From the IMG/VR virus record IMGVR_UViG_3300046460_000404, positions 1 through 34,064 of that record: a stretch of DNA of 34,064 bases. The stretch is one strand, 5' to 3'. Source of the DNA: a virus. Below the pieces are notes generated by a model that had not been told where the DNA came from, searched no databases, and was given only the letters and a program-made list of their open reading frames with translations. Positions 1 through 33,052 of the stretch are shown one piece after another. The stretch's first letter is position 1; each line of letters opens with the position of its first letter. The position numbers and the translations under genes are program-made.

Positions 1-903
1 TTATTCTGTCGTTTCATCATCGGGCGCAGCGGCTCGCGATCGAGCAATTATCGCTTGAGCCTGCGCGAGTACGCGCTCGGCATCCTTCTCGTTGCCGGGG
101 GCCATATAGTCGGGTTGGAATGAGGTTGCCGCGTCCAAGGGGCGCCCAGTCCCACCGGGAAGATACTGAACCGCTGCGATGATCGCGTCAGTTACATAGG
201 TAGTGTCGACGCGCATGCCGTCCCTGATTAGAGGCTCTGGTTTGGCGGGCGAAGATCCGATGCCAATCAGATCGACACCGTCTCTTGTGGCCTTAAGCAT
301 TCGGATCGATTGATGTATCTCGTCGCCGCGATGTTTGGCCGCGATCACGATAGTCCCATCGTTTAGTACGGCCTCTCCCTGCGGCGCGGCTACTAACCAC
401 GTGCCTTTGTGAAAGATCGGCTCCAAACTAGTATCCGCAACTTCGTAAGCCGAAAGCTGTGCACCGGATTGAGACCACCCAGGTATAAATAAGAATATAT
501 CGTTGTCAGTATTCGCTTGGTCGGACCGGACCATTTCTGGGAGCCAGCGACCTGAGATGATCCCGTATGTAGTTATTCCAATATCTTCAATTTTTATATT
601 ATCTTCGTGCTCGCTAAATTCGATCGCTTGCTTCCAGAGTTCTCGCTCTTCATGGTCTGGCGAAGATGCGTGATCTCCAAAGAGAAGCCACTGCGCATCT
701 GTCTTTAGGACCTCTGCATAGGCTTCAGCGACGGCCATCGGTAAGCCATTCGTGCCGTTCTCTTGATTGCGCACCGCGCTAGCCGAAATCGGCTTACTCC
801 GCCCCATAATCATGGCGGCCCTTCGGCCGAGTTCTTCGGCTGAGATGTTTAGGGCGCGCCGCCGCGAGCGGAGGCGCTCTCCAGTGGTGAGCGATTCTGT
901 CAT
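1..903 (-). CDS. CI-like phage repressor (XRE HTH + S24 peptidase-like domain)
   Basis: A 300-residue protein with an N-terminal XRE-type helix-turn-helix (about residues 8-60) and a C-terminal S24/LexA-like domain. The serine motif reads ADTSLEPIF (Ser159), matching the GDSMEP block of the family. The block that should supply the general-base lysine reads SIRML, with Arg201 at that place, so self-cleavage may be lost. I infer it maintains lysogeny by binding the palindrome at 937-956. I chose the ATG at 903; an upstream TTG at 921 is also open. No usable Shine-Dalgarno site is spaced before 903, so the mRNA may be leaderless. DNA around 480-600 is strikingly AT-rich (about 37% GC at 541-600), covering the linker between domains. 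The gene is complete, with its stop at the window edge. Confidence 0.85.
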   Translation of the reverse strand: MTESLTTGERLRSRRRALNISAEELGRRAAMIMGRSKPISASAVRNQENGTNGLPMAVAEAYAEVLKTDAQWLLFGDHASSPDHEERELWKQAIEFSEHEDNIKIEDIGITTYGIISGRWLPEMVRSDQANTDNDIFLFIPGWSQSGAQLSAYEVADTSLEPIFHKGTWLVAAPQGEAVLNDGTIVIAAKHRGDEIHQSIRMLKATRDGVDLIGIGSSPAKPEPLIRDGMRVDTTYVTDAIIAAVQYLPGGTGRPLDAATSFQPDYMAPGNEKDAERVLAQAQAIIARSRAAAPDDETTE

Positions 904-936
904 CCTTCCACATACCCACAAAAGGCGACAGAAGTA

Positions 937-6846: not shown

Positions 6847-7560
6847 GTGAAGGTCGAAGGCGGTAGCAGCAAGCTCGGCATCGATCTAACTGGCATCGCG
6901 CAATCTTGGGGGGTCGCAGCCATCGGGCGAATGACACCGGAGCAGATCATGATCATGATCCTGGGTACCGTCGCGGTGGTAGGAGCAACTGCCGCCTGGG
7001 CAATGTACTTGAAGCACAAGACCGACGGGCGAAAAGCCGAGCTCGAATCCAAGGGGCAAGAGCTTTTTTTCAATGCATTCAGCAAATTGTCTGAGGAAGA
7101 CACGAAGCGCCAGGAAATGTGGCTGCGCGCCACAAAGCAAGTCCCGCTGCTAGTGCAAATCGGCGACGAAGCGACACAGGCGAAGACTGAAATCTTGAAG
7201 GCAGTTGCTCACGAAGGCGGTGGGAAGATCAATGGCTTAGAAATCGAAGGTGAGACTGCGGCTGATCTCGTAGCCAACACCCGCCGAAAGCCCGCCGAAG
7301 AGATCCTGCGGGGCGTGTTCCGCGTCTCACGCGTCGATACCACGGCGCCTGATGGGTTTAAGGTGACCCTCCAGAATGTTAGGACGGGTGAAGAGATCAA
7401 CGCGTCCCTAATGGATGCGATGATTTCTGATCAGCATAGGGAAAGTATCCGCGCTGCCGAGTGGAGCAAGGGTCCCGTTTCTGTGGAAATGAAAACGCGA
7501 AAATCGCGCGGAAAGATCATTGAGGCAGTTATAGTGAATGTCACTGACGTTCCGAAGTGA
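6847..7560 (+). CDS. Membrane protein, C-terminal part of the split accessory gene
   Basis: 237 residues from GTG 6847; the frame is open further upstream (TSDEREVLDF). One membrane helix (IMIMILGTVAVVGATAAWAMYL, about 34-55) is followed by a charged helical region (about 56-125). A C-terminal domain (about 155-237) contains strands such as GVFRVSRVDT and FKVTLQNVRTGEEI. GC is about 53-55%, against about 68% in the portal gene, suggesting recent acquisition. It sits between replication and packaging, a common site for morons. Function unknown; a membrane sensor or exclusion role is only inferred. Confidence 0.6.
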   Translation: MKVEGGSSKLGIDLTGIAQSWGVAAIGRMTPEQIMIMILGTVAVVGATAAWAMYLKHKTDGRKAELESKGQELFFNAFSKLSEEDTKRQEMWLRATKQVPLLVQIGDEATQAKTEILKAVAHEGGGKINGLEIEGETAADLVANTRRKPAEEILRGVFRVSRVDTTAPDGFKVTLQNVRTGEEINASLMDAMISDQHRESIRAAEWSKGPVSVEMKTRKSRGKIIEAVIVNVTDVPK

Positions 7561-29316: not shown

Positions 29317-29526
29317 CTAGCGCCGACGTGGAAGGGGCTTCACGGGTGCTGGGTTCCAGCTCCTGACGATTTCGCCCAAGACGGCTTGGGCGACCTTCTC
29401 GGGGTCCTTGCGGCCGATCGGCGCGCGATCCGACCCATATGCGCTAGAGACGCAGACTTCGCGGCCGTCGACTTCGAAACTCGCATTGTACTGCCGCCCA
29501 TGCTCGATGATGTGGATCGTCTTCAT
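29317..29526 (-). CDS. Hypothetical protein
   Basis: 69 residues starting MKTIHIIEHGRQYNASFEVD. A small two-to-three-strand domain (REVCVSSAYGSDRAPIGRKD) is followed by a helix (PEKVAQAVLGEIVRSW) and a basic Pro-rich tail. The longer upstream frame lies antisense to 29581-29862 and was rejected. Not recognised. Last leftward gene of the right-arm cluster. Confidence 0.55.
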   Translation of the reverse strand: MKTIHIIEHGRQYNASFEVDGREVCVSSAYGSDRAPIGRKDPEKVAQAVLGEIVRSWNPAPVKPLPRRR

Positions 29527-29580: not shown

Positions 29581-29862
29581 ATGACCCGCGACGACATCGA
29601 CCGCCTTCTCAACGCCTGCCAAACTGAAGCCGCCAAGGGCGACCCGGAGGCCGTACCAGGCGCAATCTATCTCAATAGCGGGTCGTGGATCGGACTTCCG
29701 ATGGCGGTGTTTCCGACGACCTGCGTGTCGCCGGGCGTGGGTATTCGCTATCGCGGCGTACGGGTGCTGATCTCAAGCCAGTTCGAGGACAAGGTCGCGA
29801 GCCGCGCCGAGTGCGGCGATGCTGGACTGCCATTCTACGATCTGGAACCGAGCGCGGATTAG
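29581..29862 (+). CDS. Hypothetical protein
   Basis: 93 residues starting MTRDDIDRLLNACQTEAAKG; a weak AGGT lies upstream. It contains GSWIGLPMAVFPTTCVSPGV and a strand-rich end (YRGVRVLISSQFEDKVASRA). The only rightward gene in the right-arm cluster: divergent from 29317-29526 and convergent with 29874-30266. Not recognised. Confidence 0.5.
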   Translation: MTRDDIDRLLNACQTEAAKGDPEAVPGAIYLNSGSWIGLPMAVFPTTCVSPGVGIRYRGVRVLISSQFEDKVASRAECGDAGLPFYDLEPSAD

Positions 29863-29873
29863 CTGACGCCGCC

Positions 29874-30266
29874 CTATTCGTGGGGCGATCCGATCTCGGC
29901 GAGCCGTGGCCCGGGATCATCGCCAGCGGCCCGGCGGACCGATCGGGCCAGTTCGATCCGGTACCGGTCCAGGAGCGCGGCCGTCGCCTGCTTGAGATCG
30001 TAGCTGGGAGTCGTCGCCGACATGGCCTCGATCAGCGTGCGGCGCATAAGGACCGCATCGCCGGCCTCAGGCTCAGCCAGGTCGAAGGCGATCAGCTTGT
30101 CGACTTCCATGGCCGCATGAGCGGCTGTCAGCACGTTTGGACGCAACGGCTGGGCCTCGATCTCCACGACTAGCAGCGGGTCACGGCTGCCGGCGACTAG
30201 ACGGAAACCGAGAGCGGCGACGCCTTCCTCAATAATCGTGTCCCACATGTCGATGGCGTCCGCCAT
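29874..30266 (-). CDS. Hypothetical protein coupled to SRAP gene
   Basis: 130 residues starting MADAIDMWDTIIEEGVAALG, overlapping the SRAP stop by TGATG. It contains a strand pair (FRLVAGSRDPLLVVEIEAQP), a helical middle (AAHAAMEVDKLIAFDLAEPE) and the Arg-rich segment LLDRYRIELARSVRRAAGDD. Family not recognised. Tight coupling suggests it works with, or is regulated with, the SRAP protein. Confidence 0.6.
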   Translation of the reverse strand: MADAIDMWDTIIEEGVAALGFRLVAGSRDPLLVVEIEAQPLRPNVLTAAHAAMEVDKLIAFDLAEPEAGDAVLMRRTLIEAMSATTPSYDLKQATAALLDRYRIELARSVRRAAGDDPGPRLAEIGSPHE

Positions 30267-30847
30267 CAAAGCAGCGAGCCTTCCTTGATGACCTTCTCGA
30301 CGCTCAGTGTGCCGGTAGGCGCTGGCGCCAGGATTTCGGCCTGCGGTCGGGCAAGGTTCAACCAATCCAGGCCATGCTCGGGACGGAGCAGCACGACCTG
30401 GCGATCATGATAGGGCGCGATGTCGGGGCCGGGATTGGTGGTCAACATGGTGAAGCAGTCTTCCTTGACGATGCCGGCGATCCAGAAGAGCGGCGCGTCG
30501 TTCATCGTGAACCGCCATTTGGTCTTCAGCTTCTGGCCCGGTTCCGGATCTGTGAATTCGTAAAAGGCGTCGGCCGGGATCAGCACCCTGTCGCTGTTGC
30601 TGAAGTCTCGACCCTCCGACACGAAGTTGAACACCGGCTTGCCCTTGAAGCCTTTCCAGGCCCAACGCGTCATGGCGACCCGCGCCTCATCGGCCGAGGC
30701 CCGGAGGATCGGCGCGGTGTCGGTGATCTTGATCTCGGAGACCGGCTGAAGATTGGACGCCTGACCGTCCCACACGACCGGCAGGCGCAGGATCTTGTTC
30801 CACGTCTCGAACAGGTCACCCGTCTTCAAGCTGTAGAGGTTGCACAT
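30266..30847 (-). CDS. SRAP-domain protein (YedK/HMCES family)
   Basis: 193 residues with all hallmark residues: Cys2 directly after Met (MCNLYS), Asn74 in VFNFVSEGRDF, Glu97 in DAFYEF and His147 in APYHDRQVVLL. In this family Cys2, exposed after Met removal, forms a thiazolidine crosslink with abasic sites in single-stranded DNA. The start at 30847 is required for this. It follows 30852-31322 by 4 bp and lies in a cluster headed by a LexA box, so SOS-linked protection of DNA is plausible. Phage-encoded SRAP may protect phage DNA or act in lysogen survival. Confidence 0.88.
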   Translation of the reverse strand: MCNLYSLKTGDLFETWNKILRLPVVWDGQASNLQPVSEIKITDTAPILRASADEARVAMTRWAWKGFKGKPVFNFVSEGRDFSNSDRVLIPADAFYEFTDPEPGQKLKTKWRFTMNDAPLFWIAGIVKEDCFTMLTTNPGPDIAPYHDRQVVLLRPEHGLDWLNLARPQAEILAPAPTGTLSVEKVIKEGSLL

Positions 30848-30851
30848 CCGG

Positions 30852-31322
30852 TCAGGCCTCGCGCGTTCGAGTGAACGACAGCACATCGGTGAGCATCGCT
30901 GCGGTCTCTTCCTCGGTGGCGCTGACATCACGTAGCCAGATCGACGTGCGCCAAAAGCCGCCGCCATCGTCGTCGAATTCGGTGCGGTCGAACTCGATCA
31001 GCGGATGGAGCGTCCAGAAACCGTTCGGCGGCATCTTGCCGTCGTTGGAGATGATGAGGTTCGGCGGCCTAGCCGGCTCATAGCGTCCAAGCGGCGTATA
31101 GGCTTGATCGCTCCATGCGGGGTAAGGGAGCCAGAGGCGGGCGATCTCTTCCTTGACCCATGCGTGTTCGCTTTTGGCCCGTTCGGTGCGCAGTACGTGC
31201 GGGTGCTCAGGCCAGATCCACGGCGCGTCGGGCGTTTCGATGAAGAACTGAACATCGGACTCCCCGGCCGCGCGCCGTGCGGCTTTATCGATGAACCAGG
31301 GATCGTCCGGGACTTCCTTCAT
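30852..31322 (-). CDS. Hypothetical protein upstream of SRAP
   Basis: 156 residues, rich in Trp and Pro: DDPWFIDKAARRAAGESDVQ, TPDAPWIWPEHPHVLRTERA, WLPYPAWSDQAYTPLGRYEP, and an acidic EFDDDGGGFWRTSIWLRDVS near the end. No signal peptide or membrane helix. Directly upstream of SRAP (4-bp gap). Family not recognised. Confidence 0.65.
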   Translation of the reverse strand: MKEVPDDPWFIDKAARRAAGESDVQFFIETPDAPWIWPEHPHVLRTERAKSEHAWVKEEIARLWLPYPAWSDQAYTPLGRYEPARPPNLIISNDGKMPPNGFWTLHPLIEFDRTEFDDDGGGFWRTSIWLRDVSATEEETAAMLTDVLSFTRTREA

Positions 31323-31353
31323 GCAAAAAACCTAGCTGCCTTTTCGCTGACGT

Positions 31354-31542
31354 CTAGTCGCCTGGGTGGCCAGCCAGATAGTCGCGTACCGCCTGGGCGC
31401 TGTTGCCGACCTCGTCGACCGCGCGCTGCAGTGTGTCGGCCGAGACGCCCAACGCCTCGGTCCAATATCGAACTTCGTGTTCTTCGCTCATGCTGATCAG
31501 GGAGCGGTCTTGGGCGCCGCGATTGGTCAGGTCGTCAGACAT
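31354..31542 (-). CDS. DUF3606-like small protein
   Basis: 62 residues starting MSDDLTNRGAQDRSLISMSE, with GAGG upstream. The pattern MSDD-RG-DRS, then EEHEVRYWTEALGVSADTLQ and a final VRDYLAGH matches the DUF3606 family of small helical proteins common in alphaproteobacteria. Function unknown. Confidence 0.75.
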   Translation of the reverse strand: MSDDLTNRGAQDRSLISMSEEHEVRYWTEALGVSADTLQRAVDEVGNSAQAVRDYLAGHPGD

Positions 31543-31596
31543 TTGGGCCTCCACAGTTGTCTCCCTTCAAGCGGCTAGGCCGGCCTTGGTTCCGCG

Positions 31597-31812
31597 CTAG
31601 CGCATATCGCCGTCGATCCCGATGTGGCCGTCCACGCCGCGCGCACCGCAGATCCCGCAGCGGAGCCGTCGGCGCACGTCGTGCGGCATGGCGGCCTCGC
31701 CTAGGAGCCCGATGGCCGCATCGCGGGGCCACCTGACTGTGCGGCCACAGATGGAGCATTTGATCGTCAGCGGGCCGCTGAGCCGGCGAAGGATCGGCCA
31801 AACGATAGCCAT
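31597..31812 (-). CDS. Zinc-ribbon-like protein A
   Basis: 71 residues. KCSICGRTVRWPRD and later RLRCGICGARG give two CxxC pairs about 30 residues apart, as in a zinc ribbon. Spacing and the shared aromatic plus charged positions relate it to the proteins at 31816-32193 and 32466-32789. It lies 3 bp after protein B. Possible protein- or nucleic-acid-binding adaptor; function unknown. Confidence 0.65.
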   Translation of the reverse strand: MAIVWPILRRLSGPLTIKCSICGRTVRWPRDAAIGLLGEAAMPHDVRRRLRCGICGARGVDGHIGIDGDMR

Positions 31813-31815
31813 GAG

Positions 31816-32193
31816 TCAGCGTCCGGCCGGTCGGTAGCCGTAGCCAAAGTCTGTCGGGTTCAGGCCGGCGTCCAACAGGGTAGTGATCATCGCGTGTCGC
31901 GCCCGTTCGGCGCCGTCGCCCAGGTCGAGTACGCCGGAAACTGTCATGATGGGCATGTGGCCGGGGCACCGCGGACAAACGACCTTGCGCTGAATTTCGG
32001 CCATCGTCGCGCCGAGCAGGCCTTTCGCGCGGCCTAGGAAGACGTCGCGCCGCCACGTCTTACTTGTTCCGCAGTAGTGACATCGGAAGGTGATCGCCCA
32101 GCCCTTCTCAAGCGCCTCGACCAAGCGGGCCGTCGCGAACCGTGGATGGAGCCTGGTCATCTTCTCGCGGTCGGACGGGCTAGGTTCCGGCAT
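31816..32193 (-). CDS. Zinc-ribbon-like protein B
   Basis: 125 residues starting MPEPSPSDREK, with AAGG upstream; the start overlaps the preceding gene by 14 bp. The zinc-ribbon part ITFRCHYCGTSKTWRRD pairs with QRKVVCPRCPGHMPI. An extra C-terminal helix-rich extension (ERARHAMITTLLDAGLNPTD) distinguishes it from protein A. Part of the LexA-headed cluster. Confidence 0.65.
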   Translation of the reverse strand: MPEPSPSDREKMTRLHPRFATARLVEALEKGWAITFRCHYCGTSKTWRRDVFLGRAKGLLGATMAEIQRKVVCPRCPGHMPIMTVSGVLDLGDGAERARHAMITTLLDAGLNPTDFGYGYRPAGR

Positions 32194-32422
32194 CGGACCT
32201 TTGTCCGGTGTTCAGTCCAAGGTGACGGAAGAAGAAGTCCTTCCGGCCGGTCAGGCTGAATGCAGCGTGATCCAGGGCACCAATGATCGCTTGCATGGCC
32301 GCGTACTCAGGGCCGGAGATCGCTAGATGGCGCATCTGGTCGATGCACGCTTGTCGGGCTGGTCTCAGGCGATCACAGAACGCCTCGGGGTCGTGCATGC
32401 GCCCGCGTCGGCTGCGCGTCAT
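32180..32422 (-). CDS. Hypothetical small helical protein
   Basis: 80 residues starting MTRSRRGRMHDPEAF, with AGGTG five bases upstream. Helical: LRPARQACIDQMRHLAISGP and YAAMQAIIGALDHAAFSLTG, then KDFFFRHLGLN. The long upstream reading frame is antisense-like and was rejected. It could be a small regulator; not recognised. Confidence 0.55.
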   Translation of the reverse strand: MTRSRRGRMHDPEAFCDRLRPARQACIDQMRHLAISGPEYAAMQAIIGALDHAAFSLTGRKDFFFRHLGLNTGQRSDAGT

Positions 32423-32465
32423 GGCGCACCTGTTCGGATGCGGTGAGGCTGGGGGAGGGAACCCA

Positions 32466-32789
32466 TCAGTCGTACAGGCTCGCCGCTGAGCGAACGGGTA
32501 GGCCGGAAGACCCGAGTGGGCCCGGCCACACCTCAAATCGCGCGTGTCGCCGACCGCAGGGGCAACGGAGTGACCCTGAGAAGTCAGCCACCATGCGAGA
32601 ACCGAGCCCCCGCGCAAGCCAAGCCTCCGGATCGAACTCAGCAATGTCGCCGCAAGCGCAGATCGTCCGCAAATGCCGATCGGGGCCAGCCGTTTCGGCG
32701 AGCTGCTCATAGTCGACCTCGTAGGGAAGATAGATGGGCAGGGTAGGGGCGTGCGTCGTCAGACGCTCGTCAGCGTTTGGTGTGGCCAT
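32466..32789 (-). CDS. Zinc-ribbon-like protein C, first gene after the LexA box
   Basis: 107 residues starting MATPNADERL, with GGAG seven bases upstream; this start lies 13 bp from the LexA box. The ribbon uses CxC pairs: RTICACGDIAEFDPEAW and SLRCPCGRRHARFEVW. The order C-C, aromatic/acidic helix, about 25 residues, C-C matches proteins A and B. As the first SOS-controlled gene it is the best candidate for a phage induction factor; that is inference. Confidence 0.65.
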   Translation of the reverse strand: MATPNADERLTTHAPTLPIYLPYEVDYEQLAETAGPDRHLRTICACGDIAEFDPEAWLARGLGSRMVADFSGSLRCPCGRRHARFEVWPGPLGSSGLPVRSAASLYD

Positions 32790-32802
32790 AGCGGTCTCCG
32801 AT

Positions 32803-32842
32803 GTTCCGCTAATGTTCTCATTCCGGCGCGCAGAAGAGTCAA
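32803..32842 (-). promoter_or_regulatory. LexA (SOS) box overlapping a promoter
   Basis: On the + strand: GTTC (32803-32806), seven bases, GTTC (32814-32817), an exact match to the alphaproteobacterial LexA site GTTC-N7-GTTC. Reading leftward, TTGACT (32842-32837) is 17 bp before GAGAAC (32819-32814), a possible -35/-10 pair. LexA would cover the -10 and the transcript start. Confidence 0.7.
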
Positions 32843-33005: not shown

Positions 33006-33052
33006 CGTTGACATCGAGGGGGTCACAGGTTCAATCCCTGTCGCGTCCACCA
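33006..33052 (+). other. Prophage attachment site: 3' half of tRNA-Val(GAC)
   Basis: From the anticodon arm onward this is a tRNA: anticodon GAC at 33010-33012, variable loop GGGTC, T arm ACAGG-TTCAATC-CCTGT, acceptor strand CGCGTCC, A and CCA ending at 33052. The upstream sequence has no D arm or matching 5' acceptor strand (GGACGCG), so this is a partial gene copy. It marks the prophage-host junction. The intact tRNA should lie at the other prophage end, outside the window. Confidence 0.8.

Follow-up and report, generated by a model that had tools for sequence, protein, structure and literature searches.

What does a run of eight small genes behind a LexA box do at the attachment-site end of a prophage, and whom does it serve? 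The question is raised by virus record IMGVR_UViG_3300046460_000404, of which we analysed a stretch of 34,064 nucleotides (hereafter, the window), and in which a sequence-only reading had seen a LexA-controlled operon with an SRAP protein and three zinc-ribbon paralogs. The answer that we favor, with a probability of roughly 70%, is that the operon is a host-LexA-repressed, SOS-induced lesion-tolerance cassette, which a Caulobacter prophage has as cargo at the end with its attachment site.

The prophage, its host and the operon

The prophage context first proposed for the operon is well supported. The 34-kb record is a prophage that has an integrase and a podovirus-type portal (phrog_1216), and the features at its attachment-site end are as follows:

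29317 to 29526, minus strand: y29, small gene that recurs within related operons
29581 to 29862, plus strand: x29, convergent small gene that recurs alongside related operons
29874 to 30266, minus strand: g8, 130 aa, 1-nt overlap with the SRAP stop
30266 to 30847, minus strand: g7, SRAP protein (PF02586), catalytic residues intact
30852 to 31322, minus strand: g6, 156 aa
31354 to 31542, minus strand: g5, DUF3606 (PF12244)
31597 to 31812, minus strand: g4, 71-aa zinc-ribbon protein (CxxCG...CxxCG), core gene
31816 to 32193, minus strand: g3, 125-aa zinc-ribbon protein (CxxCG...CPRC)
32180 to 32422, minus strand: g2, 80 aa, with homologs in L091, L199 and L206
32466 to 32789, minus strand: g1, 107 aa, zinc-ribbon type (CxCG...CPCG), first gene of the operon
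32803 to 32817: LexA box, perfect GTTC-N7-GTTC, GTTCCGCTAATGTTC, 0 mismatches, covering the -10/start region
32837 to 32842, minus strand: -35 element TTGACT, conserved among loci
33006 to 33052, plus strand: attachment-site end, made up of a tRNA-Val(GAC) gene's 3' half and lying at a distance of 190 bp from the box

The identity of the tRNA was taken from intact copies in Caulobacter genomes. In the related prophage G256, the attachment-type sequence is present in two copies, 39.3 kb apart, which flank the phage genes, as expected of attachment sites. Past the tRNA-Val half, at the right end of the window, lies a host porin-like gene, and this flank matches, at up to 84%, genomes of a single genus, including one (G236) that contains the plasmid of Caulobacter sp. 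FWC26. For this reason, the host of the window is most likely Caulobacter.

The eight genes, g1 to g8, all point leftward and are as closely spaced as had been read from the sequence, with gaps of 43, -14, 3, 54, 31, 4 and -1 nt (that is, from -14 to 54 nt) and with no leftward terminator-like site found between them. The ATG of g1 lies 13 bp past the box, and its homologs occur in L177, L187, L188, L199 and L202, while g3 is the core gene with the best conservation. Homologs of g6 sit immediately ahead of SRAP in L090, L177, L179 and L180 and those of g8 behind it in L175/L092, L178/L093 and L183; no homolog of g6 was found in phage records, and its structure model was unusable (pLDDT 52). 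Beyond the convergent x29, y29 may, to judge by its recurrence, be a ninth member of the operon.

The three zinc-ribbon proteins are indeed related. In particular, g1, g3 and g4 each carry two cysteine knuckles, with conserved CxxC/CxC pairs at conserved spacing, and profile-profile comparison links g3 to g4 with a probability of 86%, g1 to g4 with 79%, and g1 to g3 with 47%. A model of g3 (pLDDT 78) gave weak matches in a fold search, zinc domains of HypA (Z 4.3), eRF1 and MCM among them. What had been called DUF3606-like in g5 is a true DUF3606 domain (PF12244, E=1e-21, entire profile covered). The sole match in a defence-system search was between this protein and a C-terminal stretch of PDC-M03B; we rejected it as a defence system and read it as a shared DUF3606-like stretch.

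A LexA box conserved across loci

The perfect box over the promoter stands as first described, with 0 mismatches and the -35 element TTGACT in place. Within the window alone, there are 2 box matches against 0.93 expected, at least 2 are found in 24 of 100 shuffles, and the single box is not significant by itself. The second perfect match, at 2439 to 2453, sits between convergent gene ends and is probably due to chance. With about one perfect box expected at random in a window of this size, one could argue that the box ahead of the operon is likewise a chance occurrence before ordinary phage filler genes; this we consider extremely improbable, as it is contradicted by the conservation of box, -35 element and spacing over dozens of loci. 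In other words, the box is significant because of its position and its conservation.

This conservation emerges from a search with g3 of 390 genomes of the family, which returned 23 confident Caulobacter loci. A perfect box lies near the operon head in 22 of the 23, where about 0.14 would be expected, and the remaining locus has 1 mismatch; a script scored 19 of these 23, and L189, L197 and L201 were added by reading, the script having placed the start of their head gene too far upstream and the boxes lying directly ahead of the head ORFs. A TTGAC element precedes the box by 16-22 nt (mostly 20) in 25 loci, with the first ATG or ribosome site close behind the box; the boxes of L193, L195 and L200 are without it. 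The exact 15-mer of the window's box recurs in L091, L172, L176, L201 and L202. A scan with the sigma-70 consensus found no promoter; the promoter is recognized by this conservation alone.

The motif itself, GTTC-N7-GTTC, is the published LexA box of Caulobacter (PMC12700426), and it is by analogy with this SOS literature that we expect LexA to bind here and the operon to be inducible. The proposed LexA control, and with it a damage-responsive module, is well supported by the recurrence of box, -35 element and spacing in many independent loci. Outside Caulobacter, a box lies within 70 bp of the SRAP start in 24 of 47 SRAP loci and within 310 bp in 29 of 47, and Rhizobiales and Sphingomonadales SRAP genes have it about 44-54 bp upstream. 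In phage MW091528, whose SRAP is 57% identical, the box heads an SRAP operon of its own with an otherwise different gene set.

Two further features of the promoter region deserve mention. In L177, the box (7273 to 7287) lies between two divergent operons, with g1-g3-g4 running away from it in one direction and g5-g6-SRAP in the opposite one. Furthermore, the head proteins (the first genes of L175 to L201, and g1 in the window) fall into different families and yet have in common an N-terminal stretch resembling PRAxxRATxHAP, as though promoter and gene start had served as a recombination joint.

A constant head and an exchangeable enzyme

Which part of the operon is constant? We mapped the gene families onto 29 distinct g3 loci, 6 of which were found via viral records or are the window itself. 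Constant among them are the promoter (two viral records end before it), a head gene, g3 and usually g4, where the head gene is either g1 or an unrelated-looking protein of about 100 aa with a similar N-terminus. The genes g2, g5, g6, g8, x29 and y29 are shuffled among loci. The enzyme slot, finally, is filled by the window-type SRAP (SRAP-A) in 12 loci, a second SRAP type (SRAP-B) in 8, AlkB (PF13532) in 6 and Ku (PF02735) in 1, with none recognized in 2. One of the 12 is L196, where a contig end cuts the locus and SRAP is found on a different contig from that genome. The two loci without a recognized lesion enzyme are L189, with a NucS_C-domain protein about 1 kb on, and the plasmid locus L191, with a 388-aa protein instead.

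When the count is restricted to the 23 loci that g3 alone retrieved, 21 have an operon leading to SRAP-A, SRAP-B, AlkB or Ku, although SRAP-B in L200 is 3 kb away and Ku in L192 about 1 kb. Since a genome of about 5 Mb has few such genes, a neighboring SRAP, AlkB or Ku within 3 kb would by rough estimate be expected by chance at well under one locus. That g3 loci without the window-type SRAP have no repair gene is a false impression, produced by antisense ORFs that hide SRAP-B and AlkB in the GC-rich DNA.

Judged by this comparison of gene content, the constant part of the cassette is the box with the zinc-ribbon genes, and SRAP is exchangeable cargo. SRAP, which the sequence-only reading had named in its title, is present as described, but the conserved core consists of the zinc-ribbon genes and the promoter. 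SRAP, AlkB and Ku are all DNA-lesion or DNA-end proteins. It is because the promoter and the zinc-ribbon head are kept while the enzyme is exchanged that we read the cassette as a lesion-tolerance kit for mobile elements.

As to the enzymes themselves, the AlkB proteins of L186, L188 and L197 carry QPSLFDLP near their likely N-terminus, which resembles the sliding-clamp binding motif (QxxLF) and could possibly tether them to the replisome. Ku genes also occur downstream of SRAP, in L181 (7714 to 8583) and L100 (3469 to 4389), echoing the SRAP-Ku neighborhoods described earlier (PMC3765255).

The SRAP protein

The assignment of g7 to the SRAP family holds: it matches PF02586 with E=1.3e-14 and 54.7 bits (cut-off 27.1), starts with Met1-Cys2, and has C2, N74, E97 and H147 invariant across 26 relatives. 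These correspond to C2, N75, E105 and H160 of YedK, with E97 and H147 placed by alignment to E105 and H160, and N74 by motif. In YedK, the equivalent residues make and hold the abasic-site crosslink, and g7 would likewise be expected to crosslink abasic sites. Viral contigs gave no matches when searched with SRAP or g6 as a single sequence; an alignment was required.

Carriers and competing explanations

The carriers, given here for the part of the loci whose element type was assigned, are of several kinds. The prophages have at least two portal types (podo- and sipho-type), with phrog_1216 in the window, G219 and G256, and an HK97-type portal in G210, G284 and the L089 record. Other carriers are islands with ArdC, T4SS coupling protein, ParB or resolvase genes nearby, and one copy of the cassette lies on the conjugative plasmid p1 of Caulobacter sp. 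FWC26. The picture of a module carried by a prophage therefore needs widening: the cassette is on prophages, but is not restricted to them. Beside some cassettes there are toxin-type genes, namely HEPN/nucleotidyltransferase and HipA (L190, 2547 to 4331; L210, 10730 to 13555).

This distribution bears on who gains from the operon. It could be cargo for lysogen fitness, which chiefly aids survival of the host chromosome and benefits the element only via its host. The regulation is of the host type, and SRAP genes of the host type that carry this box are common among Alphaproteobacteria. That said, the concentration of the cassette on several kinds of mobile elements suggests a benefit tied to the element, and we deem this explanation possible rather than probable, noting that it is hard to tell apart from the lesion-tolerance reading.

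A second explanation is a prophage-induction switch: upon sensing damage, SRAP or one of the zinc-ribbon proteins would set off lysis, or it would serve as an antirepressor under LexA control, as Tum does in phage 186. Damage control and the location on a prophage would agree with this, and in 2013 Aravind and co-workers suggested that SRAP in phages senses damage and acts as a switch for lysis (PMC3765255). What is more, a separate induction trigger is conceivable, because the prophage repressor (1 to 921, minus strand) combines an HTH with a domain that is weakly S24-like (PF00717, E=0.004); by-eye inspection of it revealed no obvious Ala-Gly cleavage site, and a structure search matched no solved structure. 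However, relatives fill the enzyme slot with AlkB, Ku and other SRAPs, for which no switch role is known, and the cassette is also found on a conjugative plasmid. Family searches gave no antirepressor match. We consider a switch unlikely.

An equally improbable explanation, in our estimate, is that of an anti-defence cassette, whose SRAP would shield the DNA of the phage, or DNA entering the cell, against host systems that generate breaks or abasic sites. Phage defence by DNA glycosylases that create abasic sites is known (PMC11078745), and ArdC anti-restriction genes lie near g3 loci. That said, AlkB and Ku fit poorly, LexA control would come late for shielding incoming phage DNA, and in the Brig1 work deletion of yedK left immunity unaltered (PMC11078745). 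That AlkB or Ku takes the place of SRAP in relatives favors lesion tolerance over both a dedicated induction switch and anti-defence. Accordingly, of the roles first suggested for the module, protection of DNA is favored and induction control disfavored, the basis being the exchange of SRAP for SRAP-B, AlkB or Ku.

How might a lesion-tolerance cassette work? In undamaged cells, LexA would cover the promoter. Upon damage, LexA would be cleaved and the operon transcribed, at about the time when the prophage may be induced. SRAP would then cap abasic sites in single-stranded DNA via its N-terminal Cys2, which would keep strands from breaking during replication of phage or host DNA under damage, and the zinc-ribbon proteins would be small partners that bind DNA or protein. 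This role of the zinc-ribbon proteins, like the identity of the beneficiary, is one that we infer. More tentatively still, the zinc-ribbon head may serve mobile elements as a general partner module, able to work with any lesion enzyme placed behind it, be it SRAP, AlkB or Ku. If so, an SOS-triggered exchangeable repair cassette would be a distinct gene set of mobile elements, with a logic like that of anti-defence islands.

Be that as it may, the mobile elements of one genus keep a damage-controlled promoter together with zinc-ribbon proteins and exchange DNA-lesion enzymes behind them. This offers a testable case for the idea that phages and plasmids bring their own repair kits for the moment of SOS mobilization, and it places unnamed zinc-ribbon families in a functional context.

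Comparison with known systems

The ingredients of the cassette are known, and it is the arrangement that is new. In the literature that we searched, the coverage of which is incomplete, no description turned up of a zinc-ribbon cassette that is headed by a LexA box and has exchangeable enzymes.

The coliphage 186 gene tum is a phage antirepressor gene under host LexA. The cassette resembles it in placing phage genes under the host repressor; the genes of the cassette, however, point toward the handling of DNA lesions. As for the enzyme, g7 shares with E. coli YedK and human HMCES the SRAP family and an active site of Cys2, Asn, Glu and His, but it is merely about 190 aa long, is distant in sequence from YedK (profile E=5e-4), and differs from both in that its group has F-(V/R)-S following the catalytic Asn. 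With the Caulobacter SOS regulon, the cassette has in common the LexA box and the host repressor (PMC12700426), whereas its genes are those of mobile elements rather than of the core regulon.

The closest precedent is the description of SRAP/SOS neighborhoods (PMC3765255), from which links between SRAP and SOS, SRAP in temperate phages, and Zn-ribbon neighbors of SRAP-Ku operons were already known. There, as here, SRAP lies near SOS genes, in some cases together with Ku and two Zn-ribbon-like proteins (similar to g1, g3 and g4 by description), and is also found in temperate phages. That work, however, ties SRAP to translesion polymerases, and no polymerase is found here; rather, in the Caulobacter cassette the LexA promoter and the zinc-ribbon genes are fixed, and the enzyme varies, with AlkB as one of the substitutes.
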